From contig NZ_CP016769.1 in the NCBI RefSeq assembly GCF_002287925.1, forward strand, positions 1,302,001-1,366,000: a stretch of 64,000 nucleotides of DNA, in the 5' to 3' direction. Positions 11,269 through 26,888 of this stretch are shown here, one piece after another. The translations under genes were made by a program, and so were the position numbers. Source of the stretch: Candidatus Planktophila lacus (GTDB lineage Bacteria; Actinomycetota; Actinomycetes; Nanopelagicales; Nanopelagicaceae). Positions within the stretch are counted from its first letter, which is position 1; every line of letters begins with the position of its first letter. The notes beneath the pieces are model-generated. The model was not told where the DNA came from and searched no databases. It saw nothing but the letters and a program-made list of their open reading frames with translations.

Positions 11269-13343
11269 TCTTGATCGGAATCTTTCTTTGCGCTCTTGCG
11301 AACTCGTGAAGGTTTCTTTTCAGATTCTGGTTCGATGACAATACGTTCTGGAACATCAACCGGTGGTTGCTGTGAAGGAATACGCGTTGCTGAACCTGTC
11401 CAGGCCGGACGGCGTGGCCAAGAGTTAACTTTCTTAAAGATCTTTGCAATTTCTTCTTTATTGAGAGTCTCTTTCTCAAGAAGCTGCAGCACCATCGCAT
11501 CTAAAGTCACGCGGTTTTCAACCAAGATATCAAAGGCTTCTTGGTGCGCATTTTCAATAAATTTACGGATCTCAGCATCAACGGTTGCCGCAACGTTTTC
11601 AGAGTAATCACGTTGGTGACCATAATCGCGACCCATAAATGGTTCTGATGCATCTGCGCCGAGCTTGATGGCACCAATAGTTTCGGTCATTCCGTATTGC
11701 GTAACCATAGCGCGGGCTAGTGCGGTTGCCTTTTCAATATCATTTGATGCGCCAGTTGATGGGTCATGGAAGATTAACTCTTCAGCAGCACGTCCTCCGA
11801 GTGAGTAAGCAAGTTGATCTAACAACTGATTACGAGTTGTTGAGTACTTGTCATCATCTGGCAGAACCATTGTGTAACCAAGTGCGCGACCGCGCGGCAT
11901 GATCGTAATCTTGTGAACTGGATCAGTATGTGGAAGTGCATGCGCAACAAGTGCGTGGCCAGCTTCGTGATAAGCGGTAACGCGACGTTCATCATCAGAC
12001 ATAATCCTTGATTTACGCTGCGGACCAGCCATTACGCGATCAATTGCTTCATCGATCTGGCTATTTGAAATTACCTTCTTCTCCTCGCGTGCGGCAAGAA
12101 GCGCAGCTTCGTTAAGAACGTTTGCTAGATCTGCACCAGTAAATCCTGGAGTACGACGTGCATAAGTAATTAGATCTACTTCATCTGAAAGTGGTTTGGT
12201 CTTGGCATGCACTTTGAGAATTTCTTCGCGACCCTTTAGATCTGGGCGATCAACTGCGATCTGGCGATCGAAACGACCTGGACGCAATAGCGCAGGATCA
12301 AGTACATCTGGGCGGTTAGTTGCTGCGATCAAGATAACTTGACCACCAGTTTCAAATCCATCCATCTCGACAAGAAGTTGGTTAAGAGTTTGTTCGCGTT
12401 CGTCGTGACCGCCACCCATACCGGCGCCGCGCTGGCGACCAACTGCATCAATTTCATCTACGAAGACAATTGCGGGTGCATTGGTCTTTGCCTGCGCAAA
12501 TAAATCGCGAACTCGCGCTGCACCAACACCAACGAACATTTCAACAAAATCTGAACCAGAGATTGAATAGAAAGGAACTTGCGCTTCTCCTGCTACTGCG
12601 CGAGCAAGAAGTGTCTTACCGGTTCCGGGAGGGCCGTAGAGAAGGACGCCTTTAGGAATCTTCGCGCCAAGGAGTGCGTACTTAGGTGGGTTAGCGAGAA
12701 AGTCTTTTATCTCTTCTAGTTCAGCGATCGCTTCATCAGCGCCAGCTACATCGGCGAAGGTATTTTGTGGAACATCGTTATCTTGTAATTTGGCGCGAGA
12801 TTTTCCAAATGAGAAGACGCGATTTCCACCTTGCGCGCGGCTCATCAAGAAGAAGAACAGGAAGCCAATTAAGAGAATTGGGAATATTGAGAATAGAAAA
12901 GAAAGAAATAGCGATTGTGATGGAACTTCAACGGTCCAGCCTTTTACAGGAGAGTTCGCGCTTAAAGCATCGATAAGCGTTGGCTCTTGGCGGGCAATAT
13001 ATGAAGCTTCGACTTTGCTATCGCCTTTGATTAATACACCTGGCTTTAGGATCAAACGAATCTTTTGTGATCGATCAACCAAGACCGCAGATTCAACTTC
13101 GGATTGTGAAATTGCAGCGAGTGCGCGTGAAGTATCGATTTGGGTATAACGATTACCGGCGCCGGTAACTTGTCCGAAGATGGTGACGGCCAAGATCGCT
13201 GCGACTATCCAGAAGAGTGGACCGCGAAAAATCTTTCCAGCGCGGGAAGTCGGCGCCTTCTTGGGGGTCTTCTTATCGCTCTTTGGCGCTGTAGAACTTT
13301 TCTTCTTCAGCAAATTCTTGCCAGCAATTTTCTTCTTTTCCAT
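11265..13343 (-). CDS. ftsH: ATP-dependent zinc metalloprotease FtsH
   Basis: This 692-residue membrane-anchored AAA+ protease degrades membrane and short-lived cytoplasmic proteins. A lysine-rich N-terminus precedes the first membrane segment (about 43-62), then an extracytoplasmic loop, then a second segment (about 145-168, very rich in Phe and Leu). The AAA module has Walker A GPPGTGKT, Walker B VFVDEIDA and the SRH arginines ([20 protein letters not shown]). The zinc site is HEAGH in the protease domain. The last ~50 residues are charged and variable. It follows hpt by 17 bases. Confidence 0.97.
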
Positions 13344-13360
13344 TAGCGAGAGCGCCGTCC

Positions 13361-13912
13361 CTACGAATACATGTGCTTTGCGAGCACACCGATAAAGGAG
13401 AGGTTGCGATACTTCTCGTCAAAATCAAGTCCATAGCCAACTACGAAATCTTTAGGAATATCAAAGCCGACGTATTTGCAATCAACTTCTACTTTCGCTG
13501 CCTCTGGTTTACGCAGAATCGCGAGAATTTCAACACTGGCTGCGCCTCGTGACATTAGGTTTGCGCGAAGCCAAGAAAGCGTGAGACCAGAATCAACAAT
13601 GTCTTCAACGATCAAGATATTGCGGCCAGTGATATCGCGATCTAGATCTTTCAAGATACGAACAACGCCGCTGGACTTTGTGCCAGATCCATAGGAAGAA
13701 ACTGCCATCCAATCCATTTCAATATGGCGTTGCATCGCGCGAGTAAGATCTGCCATCGCCATGATTGCACCTTTAAGAACTCCTACAAGAAGTAAGTCGC
13801 GGTCTTTGTAATCTGCATCAACGCGTGCTGCAAGCTCCGCAACTTTTTCGCGAAGTTGATCTTCGGTAACGATTACGCGTTCTACATCTGTGCCGACTGC
13901 AGCTAGATCCAC
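13361..13912 (-). CDS. hpt: Hypoxanthine phosphoribosyltransferase
   Basis: This 183-residue purine-salvage enzyme converts hypoxanthine or guanine and PRPP to IMP or GMP. The PRPP-binding loop is ILIVEDIVDSGLTLSWL (about 99-115). LLLVGVLKGAIMAMADL precedes it, and VGYGLDFDEKYRNL lies near the C-terminus. The start is GTG with AAGGAG 8 bases upstream. The tilS-hpt-ftsH order is standard for actinobacteria. Confidence 0.96.
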   Translation of the reverse strand: MDLAAVGTDVERVIVTEDQLREKVAELAARVDADYKDRDLLLVGVLKGAIMAMADLTRAMQRHIEMDWMAVSSYGSGTKSSGVVRILKDLDRDITGRNILIVEDIVDSGLTLSWLRANLMSRGAASVEILAILRKPEAAKVEVDCKYVGFDIPKDFVVGYGLDFDEKYRNLSFIGVLAKHMYS

Positions 13913-13943
13913 TTAAGGACTCCTTCATGTGGTTATGAGGTGA

Positions 13944-14909
13944 TCAATTTGGACGGGCCAAGAGCGAAAGTCTGCCCGAAATCCGGGCAACCTTCACACC
14001 ACCCGGCAGGCTCGCCTCCCCTTGTCCGTGCCAAGAAGTGACCAGCGCCTCAACGGCAGCGAGGTGATCTGCGCTTATTGAGCCACCTGGAGCCCCTGCT
14101 GCATAGATCGCAGCCCTCAAAATCCGAGAACGGATCGCTCTGGGAAGTTCGGCAAGGGCTGCGCAATCTAGATCTTTGAGGTCAACTCGAGAGATAACTG
14201 CTTGCGCCATCTCATCTAAAGCATCAGCATCATCGCGCAAGATCGCTGCACTGCGGGAAAGCGCTGCAGCAATTCCTGGGCCGATCTCTGTTTCCATAAT
14301 TGGCAAAACTTTATTGCGCACTTTAACGCGCGTGAACTTTTCATTTTCATTATGTGGATCGTTCCAGGGTTTCAGATCTGCTTCGGTGCATGCAGCAACT
14401 GTTTGTTCACGAGTAAGGCTTAAAAGCGGTCGTGCGTACTTTCCATTAACAACTGCCATTCCGGAAAGTGAACGTGTGCCAGAACCGCGCGCTAACCCGA
14501 GTAAAACTGTTTCGGCCTGATCATCGCGAGTATGTCCCAAGAAAATTTGAGAAGCGCCAAATGCATGTGCAGCAGAATCAAGAGCGGCATATCGTGCAGC
14601 GCGCGCATCGGCTTCTAATCCGGATTTTTCGACAATATCTACTTTTTCAATTAATACTTCTTGATAACCCATATCTTTTAAAGTGCTTTGTACTTTTTTA
14701 GCTTGATCTGCCGAACCGCTTTGTAATTGATGATCAACGGTTACGCCAATTAAGGTGATTGCTAAAGCTGGCGCTTCTTTAATAAGGGCATAAGCAAGCG
14801 CAAGTGAATCTGCACCACCGGAAACCGCGACTAGCGCACAATCACCAGCGGTTAGGTTTTCTAAAAATGGTCGGACAGCGTTTCGTAGGTCAACGAGCGC
14901 GCTGGTCAT
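13944..14909 (-). CDS. tilS: tRNA(Ile)-lysidine synthase
   Basis: The 321-residue protein attaches lysine to C34 of tRNA-Ile(CAU), which lets it read AUA codons. The PP-loop ATPase motif AVSGGADSLALAYAL lies near residue 28, with GHTRDDQAETVLLGLARGSGTRSLSGM downstream, typical of TilS. It is shorter than E. coli TilS because it lacks the long C-terminal domains, as in other actinobacteria. A -10-like TAGAGT sits exactly 6 bases before the ATG, which suggests a leaderless mRNA. Confidence 0.94.
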   Translation of the reverse strand: MTSALVDLRNAVRPFLENLTAGDCALVAVSGGADSLALAYALIKEAPALAITLIGVTVDHQLQSGSADQAKKVQSTLKDMGYQEVLIEKVDIVEKSGLEADARAARYAALDSAAHAFGASQIFLGHTRDDQAETVLLGLARGSGTRSLSGMAVVNGKYARPLLSLTREQTVAACTEADLKPWNDPHNENEKFTRVKVRNKVLPIMETEIGPGIAAALSRSAAILRDDADALDEMAQAVISRVDLKDLDCAALAELPRAIRSRILRAAIYAAGAPGGSISADHLAAVEALVTSWHGQGEASLPGGVKVARISGRLSLLARPN

Positions 14910-14915
14910 GCGCTA

Positions 14916-14921
14916 ACTCTA
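14916..14921 (-). promoter_or_regulatory. Leaderless -10 of tilS
   Basis: TAGAGT on the minus strand, six bases before the tilS ATG and overlapping the stop codon of the upstream NlpC/P60 gene. The hexamer and spacing match those before the SpoU gene at 24797. Confidence 0.5.
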
Positions 14922-16124
14922 GACCCGACCACCAAATGGCATAAGTCCTTTAATGCTGTAGATATTCGAGTAGAGCAGGCCTTTCCCCTTTGAATTGGCC
15001 TCCCACATCATTCCGTTACCAGCATAAATAGTGATGTGGTGGATCGATGAAATTGTTCCTTTATATGAATAGAACAATAGATCGCCTGGAACAAGTTCAT
15101 TTAAAGAGACATGTTTGGTATATCCCGCATAAAGCGCTGAGTTTAGGCGATCCCAATTTGGCCAACCGAGTCCTGCCGCTTTATATGCGGCGTAAACCAA
15201 GCCAGAACAATCAAATGAGTTTGGTCCTTCTGAACCCCAAATGTATGGCTTGCGCGCTAAAACTTGCTTCTTTGCGAAAGCGACCGCAACTGCGCGTTGT
15301 TCTTCAGTTGTGCGGATTGTTGAACGTCCCTTAAACCCGGTATCTGCCCAAACCTTTTTCTGGCCCGCAGTATTAGCCGCGGTATTAGCAAGGCTTTCTT
15401 CAAGGAGTGCAAGTGCGCGTTGCTGTTCTAGCGTAATTCGGACTCGCTTTGCGCTGGCAAGTTCGCGCGCTAACTTATCCTGAATCGCTTGCAACTTATC
15501 TACTTCTTTTTGTTGTAGCGCTTTTGCATCATCTGCAACTTTTTTAGCCCCCGCAACTTTTGCAGTTGCGGTTTCTTGCACAACCTTTGCCGCATCGGCC
15601 TTTACCTTTGCCTCGCGCGCCACAATTTCCGCAGCTTTGTAGCGATCAAGCGCCATTGTGTTCTGTACGCCCAACTTATCTAAAGTTGAAATCTGATCAA
15701 TTAAATCTTGTGGGCCGTTAGCGCTAAGTAGTGGTTCGATATCTGTCATCGATCCACCCATAATGTATGCATTCGCTGCTAGTTTTCCGATTACACGATG
15801 TGCTTGTGCAACTGCCTCTTGTGTCTCGCGAGCATATTCCGCGGCAGCTACCGCAGCAGCAGTTGCTACAGCGAGTTCACGCTTTGCCTTTACATATAAC
15901 GCCTGTGCTGCATTTGCTTTGGCGGTTAAGGTTCGAAGAGTTTGATTGGCTGCTGCTAATTTCTTCGCGGCTACATCGGCGGCTTTTTTCTTCGCGGCTT
16001 CAGCTTTCTTCGCCGCCTCAATCTGCGCCAGAGTTGGTTTCGGAGTTGCTGCGATGGCAGGAGTAATCGGTAGCGCGAGCCCAAAAATCAAGGCTAGCGC
16101 TAGCGCTTTTCTGCGATGCAACAC
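14919..16124 (-). CDS. Secreted NlpC/P60 peptidoglycan endopeptidase with coiled-coil N-terminus
   Basis: Probably a cell-wall hydrolase of the RipA/RipC type that cuts stem peptides during growth or division. The N-terminus is a signal peptide (basic HRRK, then a hydrophobic core ending in AIAA). Next comes a long Ala/Lys-rich coiled coil (about 30-270). The C-terminal NlpC/P60 domain has the catalytic Cys in SFDCSGLVYAAYK, with the catalytic His in the HHITIYAG stretch. I prefer the GTG at 16124 (401 residues), which puts the signal peptide at the very start and has a G-rich sequence upstream. A TTG at 16163 is also possible. A -10-like TATTCT is seen at 16149-16154. Confidence 0.9.
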   Translation of the reverse strand: MLHRRKALALALIFGLALPITPAIAATPKPTLAQIEAAKKAEAAKKKAADVAAKKLAAANQTLRTLTAKANAAQALYVKAKRELAVATAAAVAAAEYARETQEAVAQAHRVIGKLAANAYIMGGSMTDIEPLLSANGPQDLIDQISTLDKLGVQNTMALDRYKAAEIVAREAKVKADAAKVVQETATAKVAGAKKVADDAKALQQKEVDKLQAIQDKLARELASAKRVRITLEQQRALALLEESLANTAANTAGQKKVWADTGFKGRSTIRTTEEQRAVAVAFAKKQVLARKPYIWGSEGPNSFDCSGLVYAAYKAAGLGWPNWDRLNSALYAGYTKHVSLNELVPGDLLFYSYKGTISSIHHITIYAGNGMMWEANSKGKGLLYSNIYSIKGLMPFGGRV

Positions 16125-16197
16125 AAAACCCCCAAGTGTTAAGCCCCCAGAATAAGTGAGCAACCTGTGGAACTCCGTTAAAAGGTGGTGAGTGTCG

Positions 16198-17001
16198 CTA
16201 GTTGGCTACATCTCGTTTTGTGAATAGAACGGTTGCGATAACCAATGCGATTCCCACGTAAATCCCAGAAAGCGAAAGTGCATGGGTATAACTAATTGTC
16301 TCGGTTCCACCGGCAGCAACTGTTGCCAACTGACTTCCGGGCAACCATTCCAAAGTGCTGGATTTAACTGCGCCCACAATATTTTCTACAATCAATAGCC
16401 ACAGTACGCCAAGTGAAATTGAGCTAATTGGTGAGCGGAAGAGAATTCCCAGAACCATGCCGATGATTCCAAAGCCTAAGATCGAGATGAATACATTTAG
16501 CAGTGTTTTCGCTATTTCGATACGTCCATCGCTATTGAACCAAAGCGTGGTGCTGACATCTTTACTTCCGGCGAGAATGTAAGAGAGACCGATTGAAATT
16601 ACAGCTCCGACCAAAGTCATAATGACTGCAAAGGCTTTCATCGATGCCAATTTGCCGATCAATAAGCGGATACGGCCAGGTTGGCGCACCAAAAGATTGC
16701 GCAGCGTTCCGAGTGAGTATTCCTGAGCGGTTTGGGCCGCAAATACACAGAGTGCGATGATTCCGAGCAGGTTGCCAATACTCGTAAATGCTTGTGTAGA
16801 ACCACTTGGTAAGGCGAGCATTTCGCGGGTAATTCTTACACCGCGATCGCCATTGCCTTGTGGGGAATCGATAAGTAAGAAGAGAAGTGAAGAAACCAAG
16901 ACGCTAAAGAATGCAACTGCTCCCATTGTGCCCAGTAGCAAGGTAGGACGTCGTAATTTGCGCCATTCGGCAAAGAAGATTCTCGTTAGGCTGCGGATCA
17001 T
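16198..17001 (-). CDS. ABC-2 type transporter permease (intact copy)
   Basis: This 267-residue integral membrane protein has about six predicted segments (near 20-43, 74-94, 117-140, 170-193, 200-220 and 241-262). It has the layout of ABC-2 permeases that pair with drug or lipid exporter ATPases. The stretch AQEYSLGTLRNLLVRQPGR after the second segment is the typical cytoplasmic coupling helix region. The ATG overlaps the stop of the ATPase gene (16998-17906) by four bases, so both are one operon. Its first ~178 codons also occur at 17964-18503 in a tandem duplication. The substrate is unknown. Confidence 0.88.
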   Translation of the reverse strand: MIRSLTRIFFAEWRKLRRPTLLLGTMGAVAFFSVLVSSLLFLLIDSPQGNGDRGVRITREMLALPSGSTQAFTSIGNLLGIIALCVFAAQTAQEYSLGTLRNLLVRQPGRIRLLIGKLASMKAFAVIMTLVGAVISIGLSYILAGSKDVSTTLWFNSDGRIEIAKTLLNVFISILGFGIIGMVLGILFRSPISSISLGVLWLLIVENIVGAVKSSTLEWLPGSQLATVAAGGTETISYTHALSLSGIYVGIALVIATVLFTKRDVAN

Positions 17002-17906
17002 TTCTGATCTCCTGTCATTTCAAAGAATGTCTCTTCTAGGTTGGGTAGTTGTGGTGAAAGCTGGGTAAGTAATATTCCGGCCTCAAACGCCAACTTATTT
17101 AGAACTCCCGCCCATTCTGCAGGTCCTTCAATATGTGCAACTCCATCGCGAATATGTGCTTTATGCCCAGCGCCTTCGGCAAGAGAAATAATTTTTTCTA
17201 AATCGCTTAACTTTTCAGTCTTAACCAGCATAAATGGTTGCTGCGCATCGAAAAGGTCTTGCATTGCGCCTGCAAAAACTACTTCTCCCTTTCGCAACAT
17301 AACCAAATACTCGCTAATGATTTCTAACTCTGAAAGTAAATGTGATGAAACAAATACTGTTGTACCGCCATCTGCCAGCGAACGAAGAAGTTGGCGAATC
17401 TCTTGAATTCCTTCAGGATCTAATCCATTAGTTGGTTCATCTAAAATCAAAAGCTTTGGATTTGGCAGAAGTGCAGCTGCGATACCCAAGCGCTGTTTCA
17501 TACCAAGTGAGTAAGTTTTGTACTTTGATTTTCCGCGATCAGCGAGCCCTACTTGTGCGAGTAATTGATCTACACGTTCAAGGGGAAAGCCTCCAAGGGT
17601 TGCTAGAACTTTTAGATTCTCAGCGCCAGATAGAGCTGGATAGAAAGCAGGGCCTTCGATCATCGCCCCTACTTGAGAGAGATATTTCTCTGGAGATGTA
17701 ATGGGCTCACCCAAGATGCGCCCAGTGCCACCGCTAGGTGAGATTAGTCCGAGCAACATGCGGATCGTCGTTGTCTTGCCAGCGCCATTTGGGCCAACAA
17801 ATCCGCAGATCGTTCCGGCTGGTACCTGAAAATTGGTATGTGAAACGGCAAAGCCAGAGTCATATTTCTTACTTAAATCGCTAACGGATATCGCTAATTG
17901 AGGCAT
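16998..17906 (-). CDS. ABC transporter ATP-binding protein (copy 1)
   Basis: This 302-residue ATPase powers the ABC-2 permease downstream. Walker A is GPNGAGKTT (about 39-47), the signature is YSLGMKQRLGIAAAL (about 134-148), Walker B is LLILDEPTNGLDPEG (about 155-169) and the H-loop is VSSHLLSE. A C-terminal ~80-residue extension is typical of exporter ATPases of the NatA/BcrA kind. The protein is identical to the product at 18500-19408. A TATATT hexamer 6 bases before the ATG suggests a leaderless transcript. It is the first gene of the complete ATPase-permease pair. Confidence 0.93.
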   Translation of the reverse strand: MPQLAISVSDLSKKYDSGFAVSHTNFQVPAGTICGFVGPNGAGKTTTIRMLLGLISPSGGTGRILGEPITSPEKYLSQVGAMIEGPAFYPALSGAENLKVLATLGGFPLERVDQLLAQVGLADRGKSKYKTYSLGMKQRLGIAAALLPNPKLLILDEPTNGLDPEGIQEIRQLLRSLADGGTTVFVSSHLLSELEIISEYLVMLRKGEVVFAGAMQDLFDAQQPFMLVKTEKLSDLEKIISLAEGAGHKAHIRDGVAHIEGPAEWAGVLNKLAFEAGILLTQLSPQLPNLEETFFEMTGDQK

Positions 17907-17912
17907 GTACTC

Positions 17913-17918
17913 AATATA
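17913..17918 (-). promoter_or_regulatory. Leaderless -10 of ATPase copy 1
   Basis: TATATT on the minus strand with 6 bases to the ATG. It is an exact duplicate of the element at 19415-19420. Confidence 0.45.
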
Positions 17919-17930
17919 GCAATTGCACCT

Positions 17931-17936
17931 TAGAAT
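17931..17936 (+). promoter_or_regulatory. Orphan duplicate of the metZ promoter
   Basis: TAGAAT, followed 7 bases later by a GTG at 17944. It copies the metZ promoter at 19433-19438 but now faces the truncated permease fragment from its antisense side. Confidence 0.45.
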
Positions 17937-17943
17937 TCTCGGT

Positions 17944-18084
17944 GTGAGTAATGAGATCTGGGGTTACCAACCAAAGCCTAAGATCGAGATGAATACATTT
18001 AGCAGTGTTTTCGCTATTTCGATACGTCCATCGCTATTGAACCAAAGCGTGGTGCTGACATCTTTACTTCCGGCGAGAATGTAA
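17944..18084 (+). other. Chimeric 46-codon ORF made at the duplication junction
   Basis: It starts at the duplicated metZ GTG, keeps the first ten codons of metZ (start then SNEIWGYQP), crosses the CCAA junction and continues in the antisense of the permease fragment until a TAA at 18082-18084. It could be transcribed from the orphan promoter. It is an accidental product and a function is unlikely. Confidence 0.4.
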
Positions 18085-18503
18085 GAGAGACCGATTGAAA
18101 TTACAGCTCCGACCAAAGTCATAATGACTGCAAAGGCTTTCATCGATGCCAATTTGCCGATCAATAAGCGGATACGGCCAGGTTGGCGCACCAAAAGATT
18201 GCGCAGCGTTCCGAGTGAGTATTCCTGAGCGGTTTGGGCCGCAAATACACAGAGTGCGATGATTCCGAGCAGGTTGCCAATACTCGTAAATGCTTGTGTA
18301 GAACCACTTGGTAAGGCGAGCATTTCGCGGGTAATTCTTACACCGCGATCGCCATTGCCTTGTGGGGAATCGATAAGTAAGAAGAGAAGTGAAGAAACCA
18401 AGACGCTAAAGAATGCAACTGCTCCCATTGTGCCCAGTAGCAAGGTAGGACGTCGTAATTTGCGCCATTCGGCAAAGAAGATTCTCGTTAGGCTGCGGAT
18501 CAT
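17964..18503 (-). pseudogene. ABC-2 permease, truncated duplicate
   Basis: The first ~178 codons are identical to the permease at 16198-17001. The reading frame then crosses the duplication junction, adds one tryptophan codon and stops (179 residues in all). It keeps about three membrane segments and the start of the fourth and lacks the C-terminal third. It still overlaps the ATPase copy at 18500 by four bases. It is unlikely to form a working permease, but could be expressed as a stub. Confidence 0.85.
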
Positions 18504-19408
18504 TTCTGATCTCCTGTCATTTCAAAGAATGTCTCTTCTAGGTTGGGTAGTTGTGGTGAAAGCTGGGTAAGTAATATTCCGGCCTCAAACGCCAACTTAT
18601 TTAGAACTCCCGCCCATTCTGCAGGTCCTTCAATATGTGCAACTCCATCGCGAATATGTGCTTTATGCCCAGCGCCTTCGGCAAGAGAAATAATTTTTTC
18701 TAAATCGCTTAACTTTTCAGTCTTAACCAGCATAAATGGTTGCTGCGCATCGAAAAGGTCTTGCATTGCGCCTGCAAAAACTACTTCTCCCTTTCGCAAC
18801 ATAACCAAATACTCGCTAATGATTTCTAACTCTGAAAGTAAATGTGATGAAACAAATACTGTTGTACCGCCATCTGCCAGCGAACGAAGAAGTTGGCGAA
18901 TCTCTTGAATTCCTTCAGGATCTAATCCATTAGTTGGTTCATCTAAAATCAAAAGCTTTGGATTTGGCAGAAGTGCAGCTGCGATACCCAAGCGCTGTTT
19001 CATACCAAGTGAGTAAGTTTTGTACTTTGATTTTCCGCGATCAGCGAGCCCTACTTGTGCGAGTAATTGATCTACACGTTCAAGGGGAAAGCCTCCAAGG
19101 GTTGCTAGAACTTTTAGATTCTCAGCGCCAGATAGAGCTGGATAGAAAGCAGGGCCTTCGATCATCGCCCCTACTTGAGAGAGATATTTCTCTGGAGATG
19201 TAATGGGCTCACCCAAGATGCGCCCAGTGCCACCGCTAGGTGAGATTAGTCCGAGCAACATGCGGATCGTCGTTGTCTTGCCAGCGCCATTTGGGCCAAC
19301 AAATCCGCAGATCGTTCCGGCTGGTACCTGAAAATTGGTATGTGAAACGGCAAAGCCAGAGTCATATTTCTTACTTAAATCGCTAACGGATATCGCTAAT
19401 TGAGGCAT
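18500..19408 (-). CDS. ABC transporter ATP-binding protein (copy 2)
   Basis: This 302-residue ATPase has the same sequence as the product of 16998-17906, including Walker A GPNGAGKTT, the SLGMKQR signature and Walker B LLILDEPTNGLDP. It keeps its own promoter (TATATT, 6 bases before ATG). Its partner gene downstream is truncated, so any function would need the permease from copy 1. The duplication could raise the ATPase dose relative to permease. Confidence 0.92.
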   Translation of the reverse strand: MPQLAISVSDLSKKYDSGFAVSHTNFQVPAGTICGFVGPNGAGKTTTIRMLLGLISPSGGTGRILGEPITSPEKYLSQVGAMIEGPAFYPALSGAENLKVLATLGGFPLERVDQLLAQVGLADRGKSKYKTYSLGMKQRLGIAAALLPNPKLLILDEPTNGLDPEGIQEIRQLLRSLADGGTTVFVSSHLLSELEIISEYLVMLRKGEVVFAGAMQDLFDAQQPFMLVKTEKLSDLEKIISLAEGAGHKAHIRDGVAHIEGPAEWAGVLNKLAFEAGILLTQLSPQLPNLEETFFEMTGDQK

Positions 19409-19414
19409 GTACTC

Positions 19415-19420
19415 AATATA
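19415..19420 (-). promoter_or_regulatory. Leaderless -10 of ATPase copy 2
   Basis: TATATT on the minus strand ends 6 bases before the ATG at 19408. It is divergent from the metZ -10 at 19433-19438, with 12 bases between the two hexamers. Confidence 0.45.
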
Positions 19421-19432
19421 GCAATTGCACCT

Positions 19433-19438
19433 TAGAAT
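19433..19438 (+). promoter_or_regulatory. Leaderless -10 of metZ
   Basis: TAGAAT (five of six bases of TATAAT) lies 7 bases before the GTG at 19446. There is no Shine-Dalgarno sequence. Confidence 0.5.
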
Positions 19439-19445
19439 TCTCGGT

Positions 19446-20669
19446 GTGAGTAATGAGATCTGGGGTTACCAACCAACCAATCAACGGCCTGCACCAGATT
19501 GGGAAATCAACCCTCAAACTGCAGCAGTGCGTGCCGGTCTTGCTCGTTCTGGTTTTGGCGAAACATCTGAGGCCCTTTATTTAAATAGTGGCTTTACATA
19601 TTCCTCCGCTCAAGAAGCATTTGATGCATTCGCTGATGAGACAGATCATTACTTGTATAGCCGTTTCCATAATCCCACAGTGCAGATGTTTGAAAAGCGT
19701 TTGGCTGCAATTGAAGGCGCAGAATATTGCGTTGCAACAGGTTCTGGAATGTCCGCCATGTTCGCATCTGTCGCCTGTCTTGTTAAAGCTGGAGATCACG
19801 TAGTCGCATCAGCTGCGATGTTTAGTTCTTGCCACGTTGTGTTAACTGAGATATTGCCCAAGTGGGGCGTTACCGTAGAGCTTGTAAAAGGAAATGACTC
19901 AACAGTTTGGGCTGCAGCGTTAAGCAAACCGACAAAAGTCGTCTTTATCGAATCTCCAAGTAATCCTTTAATGGAAATAGTTGATATCCGTATGGTTAGC
20001 GATCTGGCTCATAAAGTTGGCGCCACTGTGATCGTTGATAACGTTATGGCTTCTCCGGTTTTGCAGAAACCCCTTGAACTCGGTGCAGATGTAGTTATGT
20101 ACTCCGCAACAAAACATATTGACGGTCAAGGGCGCGTACTTGCTGGAGCAGTTCTTGGTTCCTTCTCCTATATTCACGAACATTTAATTCCATTTAATCG
20201 CCACACTGGTCCATCACTAAGTCCTTTTAACGCCTGGGTGCTTTTAAAATCTTTAGAAACTATGGAGATGCGCGTTCAACGTATGTGTGAAAATGCCCAT
20301 GCGATTGCTGAATTTCTAGAGACTCGCAAAGAGATTAAATCTGTTAAATACCCTGGGCTAAAGTCGCATCCAGATTATGTAACTGTTCAGAAGCAAATGA
20401 CTGGCGGCGGAAGCACAATCGGGATCGAATTTGCTGGCAGCCAAAAAGATGCTTTCGCCTTTATGGATGCTCTGCGAATTATTGATATCTCTAACAATTT
20501 AGGCGATAGCAAATCACTTATTACCCACCCATCTTCTACAACTCATCGCCGTTTAGCGCCAGATGTTCAAGCCGAGATGGGTATTACTCCTTCAGTGCTT
20601 CGCCTGTCAGTTGGGCTAGAGCATGTAGATGATTTGATAAAGGATTTAACTCAAGCCTTTAAAAGTTGA
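19446..20669 (+). CDS. metZ: O-succinylhomoserine sulfhydrylase / cystathionine gamma-synthase family
   Basis: This 407-residue PLP enzyme of the Cys/Met metabolism family probably makes homocysteine from an activated homoserine and sulfide. Motifs are YSRFHNPTVQMFEKRLAAIEGAE, GSGMSAMFA, the FIESPSNPLMEI stretch, and the PLP lysine in YSATKHIDGQGR (near residue 213). The overall shape fits MetZ better than MetB or MetC. I chose the GTG at 19446 over a TTG at 19425 because TAGAAT lies 7 bases before it. Its stop overlaps the ctaB gene on the other strand by 19 bases. lysC and asd at 61031-63393 supply the same amino-acid family. Confidence 0.9.
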   Translation: MSNEIWGYQPTNQRPAPDWEINPQTAAVRAGLARSGFGETSEALYLNSGFTYSSAQEAFDAFADETDHYLYSRFHNPTVQMFEKRLAAIEGAEYCVATGSGMSAMFASVACLVKAGDHVVASAAMFSSCHVVLTEILPKWGVTVELVKGNDSTVWAAALSKPTKVVFIESPSNPLMEIVDIRMVSDLAHKVGATVIVDNVMASPVLQKPLELGADVVMYSATKHIDGQGRVLAGAVLGSFSYIHEHLIPFNRHTGPSLSPFNAWVLLKSLETMEMRVQRMCENAHAIAEFLETRKEIKSVKYPGLKSHPDYVTVQKQMTGGGSTIGIEFAGSQKDAFAFMDALRIIDISNNLGDSKSLITHPSSTTHRRLAPDVQAEMGITPSVLRLSVGLEHVDDLIKDLTQAFKS

Positions 20670-21547
20670 GCCGCAACAAGCAAAACAGATAGCAGGCTCA
20701 AGTAAGTAATAGACCATTGAAAAATTTTTCCTGCAGTTTTCTCATAATTTACTGATTTTTCATTTAAGCCACGGAGTTGAGCGGCGAAAACTAATCCCAG
20801 TGCAACCGTAACCGCCATCGCCCAGTTCTGTAGCTCTGCATTAATTATTAGCGCTACTGACGAAGCAATCATGGCAATTGTATAGATCCACATCTGACGA
20901 AGTAGATGTGTCTTACTGGCTACAACTGGCAGCATTGGAATATGCGCGGCAGCGTAGTCATCCTTATATTTAATTGCTAAAGCCCAAAAATGAGGCGGTG
21001 TCCAGAAGAAGATAACTAGGAAAAAAGACCACGCGGTAACCGAGAGCGAATTTGTAACAGCAGCCCAACCGATTAGCGCTGGCATACATCCTGCTGCCCC
21101 GCCCCAAACAATATTCTGCGGAGTGCGCTTCTTTAGCAAAATTGTGTAAACCCAAACGTAGAAAACAATTGCAGTTGCAGTTAGTGCGGTTGTTAGCGCG
21201 TTTGTATATACCGCAAAAATTAGAAGTGATATCAAGCCAATTAAAGTTGCAAAGATTAGCGCTTCGGCTTTTGTAAGTACACCAGTTGCAAGTGGCCGCT
21301 TTGCCGTGCGCTTCATTAACTTATCTGATTCGGATTCGATCACCATGTTAAATGCATTTGCACTTCCGGCAGCGAGGGTTCCACCAATTAAAGTTGCCAT
21401 GGTTAAGGTGAGTGAAGGCAGACCTTCATTTGCTAAGACCATCGAAGGAAGAGTTGAAACCAATAAAAGCTCGACTACGCGTAACTTCATGAGGTCTACA
21501 AATCCGCGAACCTTTACAGAAGGTTTTACGCGTGAATTCGTGGACAC
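20651..21547 (-). CDS. ctaB: Protoheme IX farnesyltransferase (heme O synthase)
   Basis: This integral membrane prenyltransferase attaches a farnesyl group to heme b for cytochrome oxidase. It has several hydrophobic segments and the first Asp-rich region in NMVIESESDKLMKRTAKRPL (about residues 65-84). There the usual Asp-x-x-hydrophobic-Asp core reads E-S-E-S-D, a mild departure from the common form. FWTPPHFWALAIKYKDDYAAA is the second conserved region. The GTG at 21547 (298 residues) is preferred over a TTG at 21553 because TAATCT lies exactly 6 bases before the GTG. No cox genes are adjacent. Confidence 0.92.
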   Translation of the reverse strand: MSTNSRVKPSVKVRGFVDLMKLRVVELLLVSTLPSMVLANEGLPSLTLTMATLIGGTLAAGSANAFNMVIESESDKLMKRTAKRPLATGVLTKAEALIFATLIGLISLLIFAVYTNALTTALTATAIVFYVWVYTILLKKRTPQNIVWGGAAGCMPALIGWAAVTNSLSVTAWSFFLVIFFWTPPHFWALAIKYKDDYAAAHIPMLPVVASKTHLLRQMWIYTIAMIASSVALIINAELQNWAMAVTVALGLVFAAQLRGLNEKSVNYEKTAGKIFQWSITYLSLLSVLLVAAQLLKA

Positions 21548-21553
21548 AGGCAA

Positions 21554-21559
21554 AGATTA
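21554..21559 (-). promoter_or_regulatory. Leaderless -10 of ctaB
   Basis: TAATCT on the minus strand with 6 bases to the GTG at 21547. It decides the start codon. Confidence 0.45.
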
Positions 21560-21658
21560 CTCAGCATTAATGTGCCGCGTTCTCATGGTCCTCTAAGGAA
21601 GGACGCCTATTGTGCGTATTGACGCTAAAACTTGCTATCAAAGATAGGGATATGACCA

Positions 21659-22099
21659 ATGACACCTCCAAAGAAGCCTGACTGGATCGAGATCGCCGAA
21701 AACGATGGCGGTTTAAATCAACCAGCACCTAAGGCAAAGAAGAGCCGTCCAGTACTTATTGCTGCGACTGCATTGGTTCTGACTTTCGGTGGCGCTGTTG
21801 TAGCCCAAACAAATCAAGGTGGGACTGGGGATACTCAGCAGCCTCAATTGGTGCAGGCATCGCAATCAGCCACAATGGCGACTCCGGCGCTAAGCGCCGT
21901 AACGCCACAATCAACATCTCCAAATTTATCTAGTTCTGTGCAATCACCGTCGATAAAAGCTCCTTCAATTGGCAAAAACACTCTTCCGGCCATTGCTACC
22001 CCACCAAATATGAATGGCGGAGATGACGATGATGAAGATGAGGACGAAGATGAGGACGAAGGTGATGACGAAGATGATGACGACCGTGACGATCATTAA
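21659..22099 (+). CDS. Single-pass membrane protein with a highly acidic C-terminal tail
   Basis: I do not recognise this 146-residue protein. It has a short cytoplasmic N-terminus (KKPDWIEIAEN), basic residues, one membrane segment at about 31-50, a Ser/Thr/Pro/Gln-rich linker (about 51-117) and a tail of ~28 residues that are almost all Asp or Glu, ending in RDDH. If the positive-inside rule holds, the acidic tail is outside the cell, where it could bind cations. AGGGA lies 8 bases before the ATG. A 5-base-stem palindrome (CTATC, AAA, GATAG) at 21636-21648 lies just upstream. A beta-propeller gene follows by 18 bases on the same strand. Confidence 0.75.
   Translation: MTPPKKPDWIEIAENDGGLNQPAPKAKKSRPVLIAATALVLTFGGAVVAQTNQGGTGDTQQPQLVQASQSATMATPALSAVTPQSTSPNLSSSVQSPSIKAPSIGKNTLPAIATPPNMNGGDDDDEDEDEDEDEGDDEDDDDRDDH
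22021..22096 (+). repeat. Low-complexity GAT/GAC/GAA/GAG codon tract
   Basis: A run of Asp and Glu codons with few interruptions (Gly, Arg) that encodes the acidic tail. Different synonymous codons alternate. It probably varies in length between strains. Confidence 0.7.
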
Positions 22100-22105
22100 T
22101 GCCAG

Positions 22106-22111
22106 TAAAGT
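22106..22111 (+). promoter_or_regulatory. Leaderless -10 of the beta-propeller gene
   Basis: TAAAGT, then exactly 6 bases, then the GTG at 22118. No Shine-Dalgarno sequence is seen. Confidence 0.5.
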
Positions 22112-22117
22112 TAGCGA

Positions 22118-23218
22118 GTGCCTCGCAAACTAGTTAAGAAGATTTCACTGGCAGTTACTTGTCTGCTCCTAACTGGCATCGCTAGCCCGATTAGCCAGGC
22201 GAATAGCCAAGATCTTTCTGCTTCGAAAAAGATCGTTTTAGTAAAAACCATTAACGGTGCGATTGCACCTAAATCGGTTGAGGCATCAAATAGCGGGCTA
22301 GTCAGCGCCCATAACATGATGTATCGCCATAGCGTGACCCTTTATAACGCGCAGACGATGGAGCTTGAAGCTACGATTCCTGATTCGGTAAAACTCTCAG
22401 ATTTTGGCTACTCGAAATATTCTGGAACATATAAAGGCTCACCTGTAGAAGGCGCCTTCTCTCCTGATGGCAATTATCTTTACTTCACAAATTATGCGAT
22501 GTATGGCAAAGGCTTTAACAGAGAAGGAACCGACACTTGTTCTCCTAGCGATAACTACGATAAAAGTTTTCTATCGCGCGTAGAACTTTCAACTAAGAAA
22601 ATTGATGCGATCTATCCTGTCGGTTCAGTTCCTAAGGTTGTTAAAGTCTCACCGGATAATAAATATATTCTTATATCGAATTGGTGTTCCTACACAGTCA
22701 CAATCATTTCTGTAGAAACTCAACAGGTAGTAAAAACTATAAAAATTGGTCGATATCCGCGGGGCATTGCAATCACCAGCGATAGCAAATTCGCTTATGT
22801 TGCCGAAATGGGTGGAAACCGAATCCACCAGATCAACCTGGAAGATTTCTCAGTTAACTACATACCAATTGGATCAAACCCTCGTGCAATTGTGCTCTCC
22901 CCAGATAACACAAAACTTTATGCAACTTTGAATATCTCGGGAAAAGTTATCGCTTGGGACTTAGCTACAAATAAGGCGATTAAGAGCGTGGCTACTGGAA
23001 AATCCGCACGTAGTTTGGCGATCTCAACAGATGGCTCAGCGCTTTATGTAGTCAATTTTAGAAGCGGGACTTTATCTGTCGTCAGTACAGAAACAATGAA
23101 AGTCTTGCAGAACGTCAAGGTTTGTAGCGAACCTATCGGAGTTACTTACGATCAAACCGAATCAAAGACCTGGGTGGCTTGTTACGGCGGTTCAATTAAA
23201 GTATTTGCACCTCAGTAA
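22118..23218 (+). CDS. Secreted YVTN-type beta-propeller protein
   Basis: This 366-residue protein has a signal peptide (MPRKLVKKIS, then a hydrophobic core, cleavage near SQANS). At least six repeats carry the pattern of YVTN/surface-layer propellers, for example VKVSPDNKYILISN, IAITSDSKFAYVAEMGGN, IVLSPDNTKLYATLN and LAISTDGSALYVVNFRSGT. Four cysteines in the mature region could form disulfides. Such propellers serve in cell-surface binding or as lyase-like scaffolds, and no catalytic site was identified. It follows the acidic membrane protein but has its own -10, and its end overlaps dacB by 23 bases on the opposite strand. Confidence 0.82.
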   Translation: MPRKLVKKISLAVTCLLLTGIASPISQANSQDLSASKKIVLVKTINGAIAPKSVEASNSGLVSAHNMMYRHSVTLYNAQTMELEATIPDSVKLSDFGYSKYSGTYKGSPVEGAFSPDGNYLYFTNYAMYGKGFNREGTDTCSPSDNYDKSFLSRVELSTKKIDAIYPVGSVPKVVKVSPDNKYILISNWCSYTVTIISVETQQVVKTIKIGRYPRGIAITSDSKFAYVAEMGGNRIHQINLEDFSVNYIPIGSNPRAIVLSPDNTKLYATLNISGKVIAWDLATNKAIKSVATGKSARSLAISTDGSALYVVNFRSGTLSVVSTETMKVLQNVKVCSEPIGVTYDQTESKTWVACYGGSIKVFAPQ

Positions 23219-24389
23219 CAACAGTTGCGCTTTCCGGTGCAGGAATAGCCAACGGCGCAGCAATCTTGGCTAGATAACGATCTAAAGTCTTGCGTGCACG
23301 ATCACTTGCTGAATTAGTTCTACGAATCTTGTCGGCGATGATTACAAATGCGTATTCACGATCGCCAGATTGCACATAGCCAGCCAGGCTTACGGTTCCG
23401 GTAAGCGTGCCAGTCTTTGCCTTAACCAAACCAACCGCATCCGGAGCCGTCTCGATATAGCGATTTCGCAGCGTTCCACTTTCTCCACCGACCGGAAGAC
23501 TCTCAATCAACCTTGAAAGAACTGGATCGGAATGAATTTTGTAGAGCAGTTGTGCAAGTACGTGTGCAGTTATTTTATTCTGTCGAGATAAACCACTGGC
23601 ATCAATAACGACTATCTGCGCTGGATTTATCCCAAATGAAATCAAAATCTCTGCGAAGGTAACTGCTACGCCTTCATCGTTAAATTCATTGCCAGCATAC
23701 TTTGCGGCGATCTTAGCCATGCGTTCTGAAAGTTGGTTATCACTCCAAAGCAAGAACCAATCAAGCATCTTTATAACTTGTGGTGATTCTGAAGTTAAAA
23801 TCTCTTCGCTAACTAATGAAGTAGCCTTTTCATCGCTTACCTTGATAAATGCAGCGGTAACTCCACGTTTCTTGTAGAAGGCTTTATAACTTGCAACTTC
23901 GTTGGCATAGATACCGTTGTAATAAACCTTTAACTTCTTTATCGAACCGCCTGAGCTCTCTTTAACTTTACTAAGGCTATTAAAGGCAATCCGTGGAAAA
24001 GAGGTGCGCTTCATCTTTGTTGCAACCCGATGATCCATCGAAATCCAAGGATCAAACTCGCCATCGATAACAATTGAATCAGGAACCGTGCCGAGTGAAA
24101 CTCGAGTTGTAAAGACTTGGTCAGGCTGTAAGTGTTTTAAGGTGGCCGCGGCTGCAAGAATCTTCATTGTCGAAGCGGGCTTGCGTTGTGAAAATGCATT
24201 TGATTCAAAGACGATCTCGCCGGTGCTTACATCAATTAACGACACCGATGGATTACTTAACTCTGGCTCTACCGCTAGACGCGAGAAAACGCTGGCTGCT
24301 GAGATGGGATCAAATGCAGAAGCGCTAGGAGTGATAGCCAATACCGCTGCGGTCAGCAGCGCAGAGCGCCTAACAAAACTATTAAACAA
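23196..24389 (-). CDS. dacB: D-alanyl-D-alanine carboxypeptidase/endopeptidase (PBP4, S13 family)
   Basis: The 397-residue penicillin-binding protein trims peptidoglycan stem peptides outside the membrane. After a signal peptide (ending SASAF) come the three active-site motifs: SxxK as ASTMK near residue 72, SxN as SDN in LLWSDNQLSE, and KTG in VKAKTGTLTGTVSLAG. The start is a TTG, with no better start upstream. The gene lies 8 bases after a small membrane-protein gene. A dacB-type gene near hpt and tilS is usual in actinobacteria, and here it is about 9 kb away. Confidence 0.93.
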   Translation of the reverse strand: MFNSFVRRSALLTAAVLAITPSASAFDPISAASVFSRLAVEPELSNPSVSLIDVSTGEIVFESNAFSQRKPASTMKILAAAATLKHLQPDQVFTTRVSLGTVPDSIVIDGEFDPWISMDHRVATKMKRTSFPRIAFNSLSKVKESSGGSIKKLKVYYNGIYANEVASYKAFYKKRGVTAAFIKVSDEKATSLVSEEILTSESPQVIKMLDWFLLWSDNQLSERMAKIAAKYAGNEFNDEGVAVTFAEILISFGINPAQIVVIDASGLSRQNKITAHVLAQLLYKIHSDPVLSRLIESLPVGGESGTLRNRYIETAPDAVGLVKAKTGTLTGTVSLAGYVQSGDREYAFVIIADKIRRTNSASDRARKTLDRYLAKIAAPLAIPAPESATVVTEVQIL

Positions 24390-24397
24390 GCGCTGTG

Positions 24398-24745
24398 TTA
24401 CCCAACTGTGGCGATAAGAATATTGAGAACTGTTAGGCCAATTAACGTTAGCCAGATGCTCTTCTTTAATTCGCTCTTCTTCGCGTTTATGTAGCTAAGT
24501 ACCAGAATGGCTAGGACTACCAAGAGCTTTATTCCAACTTTGGTGTGATCTAAGGTCTCATCTGGTTTTGCCGATGAATAAGTACCAACCATCACAAGAC
24601 CTGCCAATAGCGCAGTCGCTGCGGAATGCATTACACCTTTAGAAAGTTTGCGAGGGCTTTTATTCCATTGCATAAGAAGCAGAATAAGAATTCCAGCGAT
24701 CGCCAACATATGTGCGATATATGCGATCAGAAATACAGTCTCCAT
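24398..24745 (-). CDS. Small integral membrane protein, unknown function
   Basis: The 115-residue protein has about four hydrophobic segments (near 4-25, 40-57, 71-88 and 94-113) separated by short basic or polar loops (KSPRKLSKG, SAKPDETLDHTK, NAKKSELKK). I do not recognise the family. It lies just upstream of dacB on the same strand and is probably cotranscribed. Upstream on the minus strand are a -10-like TAATAT (24775-24780) and a duplicated GAAAGG/CTAGAAA sequence before the ATG. Confidence 0.75.
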   Translation of the reverse strand: METVFLIAYIAHMLAIAGILILLLMQWNKSPRKLSKGVMHSAATALLAGLVMVGTYSSAKPDETLDHTKVGIKLLVVLAILVLSYINAKKSELKKSIWLTLIGLTVLNILIATVG

Positions 24746-24784
24746 AGTTTCTAGCCCTTTCTAGCCTTTCTTGCATATTAAGTT

Positions 24785-24790
24785 TAGAGT
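24785..24790 (+). promoter_or_regulatory. Leaderless -10 of the SpoU methyltransferase gene
   Basis: TAGAGT followed by 6 bases and the ATG at 24797, with no Shine-Dalgarno sequence. It is divergent from a TAATAT at 24775-24780. Confidence 0.5.
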
Positions 24791-24796
24791 GCGCAC

Positions 24797-25441
24797 ATGG
24801 AAATAAATACACCTGCCACGATCGGCCCAGGAGAATTTTTTCCTGTTGTAGGTGTTGGTCCTCATGAAAAACCTTGGCCAACAGGTGCTCAATATGACTC
24901 AGAATTGCTTGAGAATGGTGATCGTCGCAATGTTCTAGATCACTATCGCTATTGGTCCGTTGAAGCAATTGTTGCTGATCTCAATACTAAGCGCCATAAA
25001 CTGCATATCGCTATTGAAAATTGGCAACATGACTTAAATATCGGTTCAGTTGTTCGAACTGCAAATGCCTTTAATGTTTCGGCCGTACATATCGTTGGAA
25101 AGCGTGACTGGAATAAGCGTGGCGCAATGGTTACAGATAGATACCTAACCGTTATTCATCACCCCACAATCGCCGACTTTGCAACTTGGTGTAAAGAAAA
25201 TAACCTGCCGATTATCGGAATCGATAACGTCCCGACTTCTAAACAACTTGAAGGAGCGCAATTACCTGAATCATGTGTGCTTTTATTCGGACAAGAAGGC
25301 GCCGGAATGTCAGATGAAGGTATTGAAGTCTGCGAAGTGCTCTATGAGATACGCCAATATGGATCTACTCGTTCCATGAACGCTTCAGCTGCTGGCGCGA
25401 TAGCGATGTATCACTGGGCGCTGCAACACCTACCTCGTTAA
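24797..25441 (+). CDS. TrmH/SpoU family RNA 2'-O-methyltransferase
   Basis: This 214-residue SPOUT-fold enzyme uses S-adenosylmethionine to methylate a ribose of tRNA or rRNA. The three knot motifs are HDLNIGSVVRTANAF (about 78-92), VLLFGQEGAGMSDEGIE, and IRQYGSTRSMNASAAGAIAMY near the C-terminus. An N-terminal ~55-residue extension precedes the catalytic domain. The target nucleotide cannot be told from sequence. Its end overlaps the phosphatase gene on the opposite strand by 12 bases. Confidence 0.9.
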   Translation: MEINTPATIGPGEFFPVVGVGPHEKPWPTGAQYDSELLENGDRRNVLDHYRYWSVEAIVADLNTKRHKLHIAIENWQHDLNIGSVVRTANAFNVSAVHIVGKRDWNKRGAMVTDRYLTVIHHPTIADFATWCKENNLPIIGIDNVPTSKQLEGAQLPESCVLLFGQEGAGMSDEGIEVCEVLYEIRQYGSTRSMNASAAGAIAMYHWALQHLPR

Positions 25442-25927
25442 CTCCTGCAGCAAACCATCTATCGCACGTTCCACCATTCCGAGAACTTCTTCGAATGCCG
25501 AATCAGGTAGCGAATAAGGATCTGGAACTTCGCGATCGCCAGCAATTGTGTAATCAAAGTCGCGCAAGAAATGAACTTTACCGTGCAGTTCTTGATTTTC
25601 AGTAAGCGACAAAACATTTCGGTGGTTGCTGCGATCCATCACCAAAATCAAATCAGATTTCTCCATTCGTGCAGCAGTCATTTCCGACGCGATGTGATCG
25701 AACTTGTAACCTGCTGCTTCCCAAGTTTTCTTGGAAGGTGGATTTGGACCTTCACCTACATGCCAATTTGAAGTTCCCGCACTATCGACCAGAATTTTCG
25801 GTGCGCTCCAAGTAGAAGTTCTATTTGCTAAAACCGCTGCCGCCATTGGAGAACGACAAATATTTCCTAGACAGACCATGGTGATTAAAAGTTCATCGCG
25901 ATTTCGCAGATGAGATAAATCAGGCAC
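25430..25927 (-). CDS. Low-molecular-weight protein-tyrosine phosphatase
   Basis: The 165-residue enzyme has the catalytic P-loop CLGNICRSPMA (about 19-29), the DSAGTSNWHVGE region, MDRSNHRNV, and the general-acid loop VPDPY (about 133-137). Such enzymes remove phosphate from tyrosines of kinases or exported factors. The start is GTG, 7 bases after the TPR gene stop. No tyrosine kinase is nearby. Confidence 0.93.
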   Translation of the reverse strand: MPDLSHLRNRDELLITMVCLGNICRSPMAAAVLANRTSTWSAPKILVDSAGTSNWHVGEGPNPPSKKTWEAAGYKFDHIASEMTAARMEKSDLILVMDRSNHRNVLSLTENQELHGKVHFLRDFDYTIAGDREVPDPYSLPDSAFEEVLGMVERAIDGLLQELTR

Positions 25928-25934
25928 GAGTTAT

Positions 25935-26888
25935 TTAGTCGCCTAAATCATCCGAGACGGGGACATCTTCCATCGCCTCGCGCACAGCAACCAAGCGGCG
26001 GTCGATTTCATCTGCTTCAGCCATACGACCAAGAGCGCGAAGCACTTTGGTCATACGGGTTTCGATATCAACAATTAGTTCGAAATCCTTTGGTTCTTCT
26101 TCAGAAATAATCTGCAGAACACCATCTAACGTCGCCAGACCTTCATCGAGTTTTCCGAGTAGAACTTCGGCTTTTCCGTATTCGTAGAGCGCAAAGGTTT
26201 CACGGCGGTGATCATGGCCGGTTTCAAAGACATCGATCGCCTTGCGAGCAGCTTCGATCGCTTTTTCGCCATCGCCGAGTTCGACATAGCAAGATGCGAT
26301 CTTCTGATCACAGCGTGCAACTTGAATAACTTCTTTTTCGGTCTTAAAAATCAAACGAGCTTCTTTAAAGGTAGTAATTGCCTGGTCGTACTGCTTTAGC
26401 TCGCGATATGCGCAACCAAGCAAATGGAGATCATTAGCGGCACCGATTTGATTTCCATCAACTAAATGCTCTTGCGCACATTCATCCATGATCTCGACAA
26501 CTTTTACAAAGTTCTTCGAGGCATACCACCACTCACCCAATGTGCAGGCAAGTTCTAATGAGAGTGGAGATTTGCTCTCGCGCAAAATTTCCACAGCTTT
26601 GCTCATGGCAGTGGCCGCTTCATCCATACGCTTTAACTGATTTAAGTTATAACCAATTGCAGAGTAAGCCTGCGCAAGTCCTTCGCTAGATTCAGCAGCG
26701 CCGAGTTCAGAGAAGATATCGCGCGCGGTTTCGGCAAGTGCTAAAGCTTCGTCGTACTGTCCGCGTGCAAAAATTCGCGCACTTAATTCGTAATATGTAT
26801 TTGCACGATCTGCGCCATGGACCTCTGGAATTCGATCCCAGAGCATCTCTTCGGTTACGAGCTCGTCCTGGCTTTCATCATCGCTCAT
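25935..26888 (-). CDS. Tetratricopeptide-repeat protein
   Basis: The 317-residue cytoplasmic protein has about six TPR-like helical pairs with typical Ala/Gly/Tyr spacing, for example ARGQYDEALALAETARDIFSE, LKQYDQAITTFKEARLIFK and LGDGEKAIEAARKAIDVFE. It is acidic at both ends. TPRs mediate protein contacts and no catalytic part is seen. TAATCT lies 7 bases before the ATG, so a leaderless mRNA is likely. The phosphatase gene follows by 7 bases, so the two may be functionally linked. Confidence 0.85.
   Translation of the reverse strand: MSDDESQDELVTEEMLWDRIPEVHGADRANTYYELSARIFARGQYDEALALAETARDIFSELGAAESSEGLAQAYSAIGYNLNQLKRMDEAATAMSKAVEILRESKSPLSLELACTLGEWWYASKNFVKVVEIMDECAQEHLVDGNQIGAANDLHLLGCAYRELKQYDQAITTFKEARLIFKTEKEVIQVARCDQKIASCYVELGDGEKAIEAARKAIDVFETGHDHRRETFALYEYGKAEVLLGKLDEGLATLDGVLQIISEEEPKDFELIVDIETRMTKVLRALGRMAEADEIDRRLVAVREAMEDVPVSDDLGD

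Follow-up and report, generated by a model that had tools for sequence, protein, structure and literature searches.

A perfect 1,502-bp tandem duplication with CCAA at its boundaries in an ABC exporter locus of the Candidatus Planktophila lacus assembly

Genes at the duplicated locus

The window, which is the whole 64-kb stretch of Candidatus Planktophila lacus DNA analysed here, carries a 1,502-bp unit twice, in direct tandem. Unit 1 is at 16469-17970 and unit 2 is at 17971-19472; they are 100% identical, and no strand is assigned to either. Each unit consists of an ABC exporter ATPase gene, a 37-bp gap, the first codons of a divergent sulfhydrylase gene, and 177 permease codons. In the open reading frame list, the inner ATPase gene (16998-17906, minus strand), which adjoins the complete permease gene, encodes 302 aa and matches Pfam ABC_tran with an E value of 1e-27. 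The outer duplicate (18500-19408, minus strand) encodes an identical product of 302 aa. The claim of the original prediction that the ATPase gene is doubled is therefore upheld in the assembly.

The complete ABC-2 permease (16198-17001, minus strand, 267 aa) is matched by Pfam ABC2_membrane_4 at 32.8 bits against a cut-off of 27, and has no NCBIfam match. The truncated permease (17964-18503, minus strand, 179 aa) ends at the junction of the two units and is still matched by ABC2_membrane_4, at 35.7 bits against the same cut-off of 27. Its reading frame closes no more than two codons from the edge of the unit, at a TAA (17964-17966) supplied by antisense sulfhydrylase sequence. A simple hydrophobicity scan places this end in approximately hydrophobic segment four, with those near residues 194-212 and 242-260 missing. 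One complete permease and one that stops at the junction had been predicted, and this is what the two reading frames are. Since the unit wholly contains only the first 177 of the 267 permease codons, the gene set added by the duplication is the ATPase gene and a truncated permease gene. The duplication thus doubles the ATPase and not the complete exporter. The original ATPase-permease pair remains whole, as does the sulfhydrylase gene.

The sulfhydrylase gene (19446-20669, plus strand) encodes an O-succinylhomoserine sulfhydrylase (NCBIfam TIGR01325, 544 bits against a cut-off of 510.05). The GTG at 19446, inside unit 2, was chosen by us as its likely start. The start of this gene is also repeated at the end of unit 1, where a stub (17944-18084, plus strand) comprises the first 10 codons and then runs into antisense permease sequence, with 46 codons to the stop. 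The 37 bp that separate the ATPase start from the divergent sulfhydrylase start are likewise present twice, at 17907-17943 and 19409-19445 (no strand), and are a putative promoter region by their position only. The repetition of the sulfhydrylase start and of the 37-bp gap was absent from the original prediction. In a promoter scan of 16100-19600, no consensus promoter was found in the 37-bp divergent gap. The scan gave one promoter-like site in the region against a shuffled mean of 4.7, and three terminator-like sites were found there against a shuffled mean of 3.2; both counts are uninformative.

As for the exporter family, the best solved relative of the ATPase by sequence is NosF (E 1.4e-46). 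The locus has in common with NosF and with the DrrA-type and lantibiotic-protection ABC-2 exporters a broadly similar ATPase adjoining an ABC-2 permease. Unlike the named NCBIfam exporters, however, the ATPase in the window does not reach the curated cut-offs, with 219.5 against 309.75 for TIGR03740 (lantibiotic-protection) and 195.3 against 312.45 for TIGR01188 (DrrA), and no substrate can thus be assigned.

Two further genes lie close to the duplicated region. Downstream of the permease, an NlpC/P60 protein is encoded at 14919-16163, for which the nearest NCBIfam model is RipC (107.5 bits against a cut-off of 425); it is present in 76 of 80 relative loci. A predicted protein of 146 aa with a very acidic Asp/Glu tail is encoded at 21659-22099.

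Identity of the copies and the single-copy state in relatives

A base-by-base comparison at a period of 1,502 gave unbroken identity between 16469-17974 and 17971-19476, with 1,506 of 1,506 positions matched and zero mismatches. When the 64-kb window was compared with itself by BLAST (word 16, E up to 1e-3), the same coordinates were obtained, and a repeat search of the window returned the same start and spacing. The perfect 1,502-bp tandem duplication that had been predicted at 16469-19476 is therefore confirmed. The two units are also found in the source genome, at G000:C1:1318469-1319970 and 1319971-1321472, on one contig of 1,460,061 bases, and the assembly has no copies beyond two. The only other self-BLAST pair in the window is a direct repeat of approximately 70 bp with 84% identity (2453-2522 and 2679-2747). 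With only this one further self-match, the 1.5-kb repeat is not due to chance.

The close comparison was made with two genomes, the nearest relatives among those compared: G003 of the same species and G004, which is listed under the same genus. By BLAST, each has one unit, and the window flanks are matched on both sides. When one unit was left out, the source genome, G003 and G004 could be aligned without any difference in length across 12,498 columns. It should be mentioned that the BLAST match to G003 from unit 2 rightward has four gap openings, despite this gap-free alignment.

Within the unit, the source genome differs from the relatives at 45 sites. At all 45, G003 and G004 agree with each other, and both copies in the window carry the letter of the source genome; between the copies, none of the 1,502 sites differs. 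The sharing of these 45 differences by two otherwise indistinguishable copies indicates that the duplication arose after the two alleles had separated, or that the copies have since been kept uniform by recombination between them. Import of a second allele as the source of the second copy is unsupported, because both copies carry one allele. The zero differences between the copies and the single copies in G003 and G004 fit the very recent event that the original prediction had proposed.

A wider comparison with related genomes, which had been suggested as a check, gave a similar picture. The junction pattern (22 bases, up to two mismatches, by which distant alleles would be missed) was found in the source genome only, among 135 genomes of the genus that include the source genome itself. 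Assembly from short reads often merges perfect tandem repeats into one copy, and many of the 135 genomes are fragmented; the absence of the junction from the others is therefore weak evidence. The locus was matched in 131 of the 135, and among the matches listed, two adjacent near-identical matches occur only in the source genome. Of 267 related stretches found in named genome records, 80 loci were examined, and every one has a single ATPase gene by a criterion of more than 60% identity and 150 residues, although the length of some loci is no more than 3-5 kb and a duplication could escape notice in fragmented assemblies. All five neighbours (the NlpC/P60 protein, permease, ATPase, sulfhydrylase and UbiA) are present in 65 of the 80 loci, and one or two are missing in the other 15. 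A duplication common to the genus is unsupported on these counts of junctions and ATPase genes.

Several other features of the relatives were observed. The records JAPOHK and CANHRM have two loci each, on different contigs, so that some bins contain another gene related to that of the ATPase and unlinked to it. In L006 and L035, which by their length (17,871 bases) are the same contig of a metagenome-assembled genome, approximately 50 bp of the ATPase gene corresponding to window 17300-17350 is missing, owing either to a genuine short deletion or to faulty assembly.

Divergence from G003 and G004 over 12001-26000, taken in 300-bp bins, is mosaic, and the nearer relative switches from block to block. 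There are 3 differences in the 3,000 bases of 19803-22802, and approximately 5-9% divergence at 15001-15900 and 16501-17100. Such a mosaic is the pattern expected from recombination in the population. The 21 differences from G003 in bin 24603 may be an alignment shift.

Boundaries of the units and the route of duplication

The tetranucleotide CCAA lies at all three boundaries, at 16469, 17971 and 19473, as had been predicted. At the left boundary, CCAA (16469-16472, no strand) is within the intact permease gene and is also found in G003 and G004. At the novel junction, CCAA (17971-17974, no strand) forms the 4-bp microhomology. At the right boundary, CCAA (19473-19476, no strand) is in the 5' part of the sulfhydrylase gene, in a run that, by alignments of 16 loci, is CCAACCAACCAA in the source genome versus TCAACCAACCAA in G003 and G004. 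Exactly these 4 bp are common at the join. In the single-copy state of the window, at least 4 bp are shared by chance in 2.0% of joins at the same spacing and in 1.9% at random spacings. No inverted repeats of at least 7 bp and up to 60 bp apart were found in the 200 bp around each boundary. Hairpins or long flanking repeats are accordingly unsupported as the cause, since no such inverted repeats were seen and the one other self-match of the window lies outside the unit.

These features would be accounted for as follows. While the start of the sulfhydrylase gene was being copied, the growing 3' end most probably paired through CCAA (4 bp) with the CCAA approximately 1.5 kb back in the permease gene. 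The stretch between them would then be copied again by template switch or slippage, for which long homology is unnecessary. This would leave the locus with an additional ATPase gene, which has a separate copy of the upstream gap, and with a permease shortened to 179 aa.

RecA is present in the source genome, and no match to Ku (PF02735) was found there; as a control, the same search gave a match in one of 14 genomes, that of Bacillus subtilis. Ku-type end joining is not favoured, given this absence of a Ku match. The 4-bp microhomology, the lack of inverted repeats, and the presence of RecA without Ku seem to favour template switch or slippage over Ku-type end joining. The original prediction had named slippage or end-joining; the microhomology fits the former, together with template switch, and end joining of the Ku type is unlikely. 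In Escherichia coli, microhomology was present at all 40 amplification junctions sequenced, according to an excerpt of PMC3161906. In our judgement, the locus is probably the product of a recent spontaneous duplication of 1,502 bp in one Planktophila species lineage, by template switch or slippage at microhomology.

An artefact of assembly or amplification is the less likely explanation of the second copy, though one to be weighed seriously; the original prediction had also raised an assembly error. The second copy might have come from contig ends whose overlap was left untrimmed before a later rotation, or from a chimera formed in whole-genome amplification, and both the zero differences between the copies and the single copy in G003 and G004 would be expected from such an origin. 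No BLAST match is common to the first and the last 20 kb of the contig, and an earlier rotated assembly stays compatible with this. However, an untrimmed overlap would join anywhere, and the chance of sharing at least 4 bp is approximately 2%. In addition, a short-read assembler, as is generally known, normally collapses a perfect 1.5-kb repeat and does not invent one. Whole-genome amplification can give chimeras. Four complete acI genomes of another study were made after MDA whole-genome amplification (PMC5301498, in part). Cut-offs between chimeras and real junctions of 7, 9 and 8 bp in three datasets, and of 11 bp after duplications had been verified, are given in a portion of PMC3411829. 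The 4-bp join falls under all of these, which counts against a real junction, and the junction is known from one assembly. If the second copy is an artefact, the record contains a spurious ATPase gene. The repeated DNA is probably real.

Selection, persistence and significance

The duplication had also been proposed as an early step of gene amplification under selection. Export would then be raised by a larger amount of ATPase, or by transcription that starts in the second upstream gap and reads through into the ATPase-permease pair that is intact. Both ATPase copies are intact and each has its upstream gap, and short tandem duplications can amplify, as stated in an excerpt of PMC12607827. On the other hand, the complete permease is not doubled, the assembly stops at two copies, none of the 80 relative loci examined has a parallel duplication, and neutral persistence would suffice (PMC12607827, in part). 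The proposal is thus unsupported, what is doubled being the ATPase and not the whole exporter, and selection is considered very improbable.

In a growing culture of S. typhimurium, duplication-bearing cells were put at 10% or more in an earlier estimate and deduced to be approximately 20%, in the part of PMC3411829 that deals with this. Duplications of 2.6 kb and 3.3 kb persist without selection, and that of 2.6 kb is lost at a rate of approximately 1e-4 per generation (PMC12607827, excerpt). On these figures, the locus can be explained without selection. Founding of the strain from one or a few cells would have allowed a duplication like this to become fixed by chance, and it seems to be neutral.

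The duplication in the window resembles the spontaneous short-junction duplications of bacteria in excerpts of PMC3411829 and PMC3161906, which are also direct tandem copies with few shared bases at the join and a single copy in relatives. The size and the join are 1.5 kb and 4 bp in the window, whereas the duplications verified in PMC3411829 (five of eight tested) have 11-27 bp at the join in the passage concerned. With the Pseudomonas aeruginosa duplications of PMC12607827, as far as its excerpt goes, it has in common that the tandem copies are short, and those of P. aeruginosa can persist without selection. They differ in that they span 2.6-497 kb and were engineered with a marker at the join, whereas the one in the window is natural and shorter. 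The excerpts of PMC11039613 and PMC12381374 contain nothing on the duplicated locus.

Short duplications were proposed as a genetic memory in part of PMC12607827. For the present locus, it is highly doubtful that a streamlined free-living bacterium is here in the opening stage of an adaptive shift in copy number, in which the ATPase is doubled, a second upstream region is added, and re-expansion would be possible under stress. A young tandem duplication bounded by microhomology is an ordinary event of an already known kind, and no general view is changed whether the second copy is real or an artefact. If it is real, the locus would be a clean case of a very young, microhomology-bounded duplication in a freshwater actinobacterium with a small genome, for which the close relatives fix the ancestral state.
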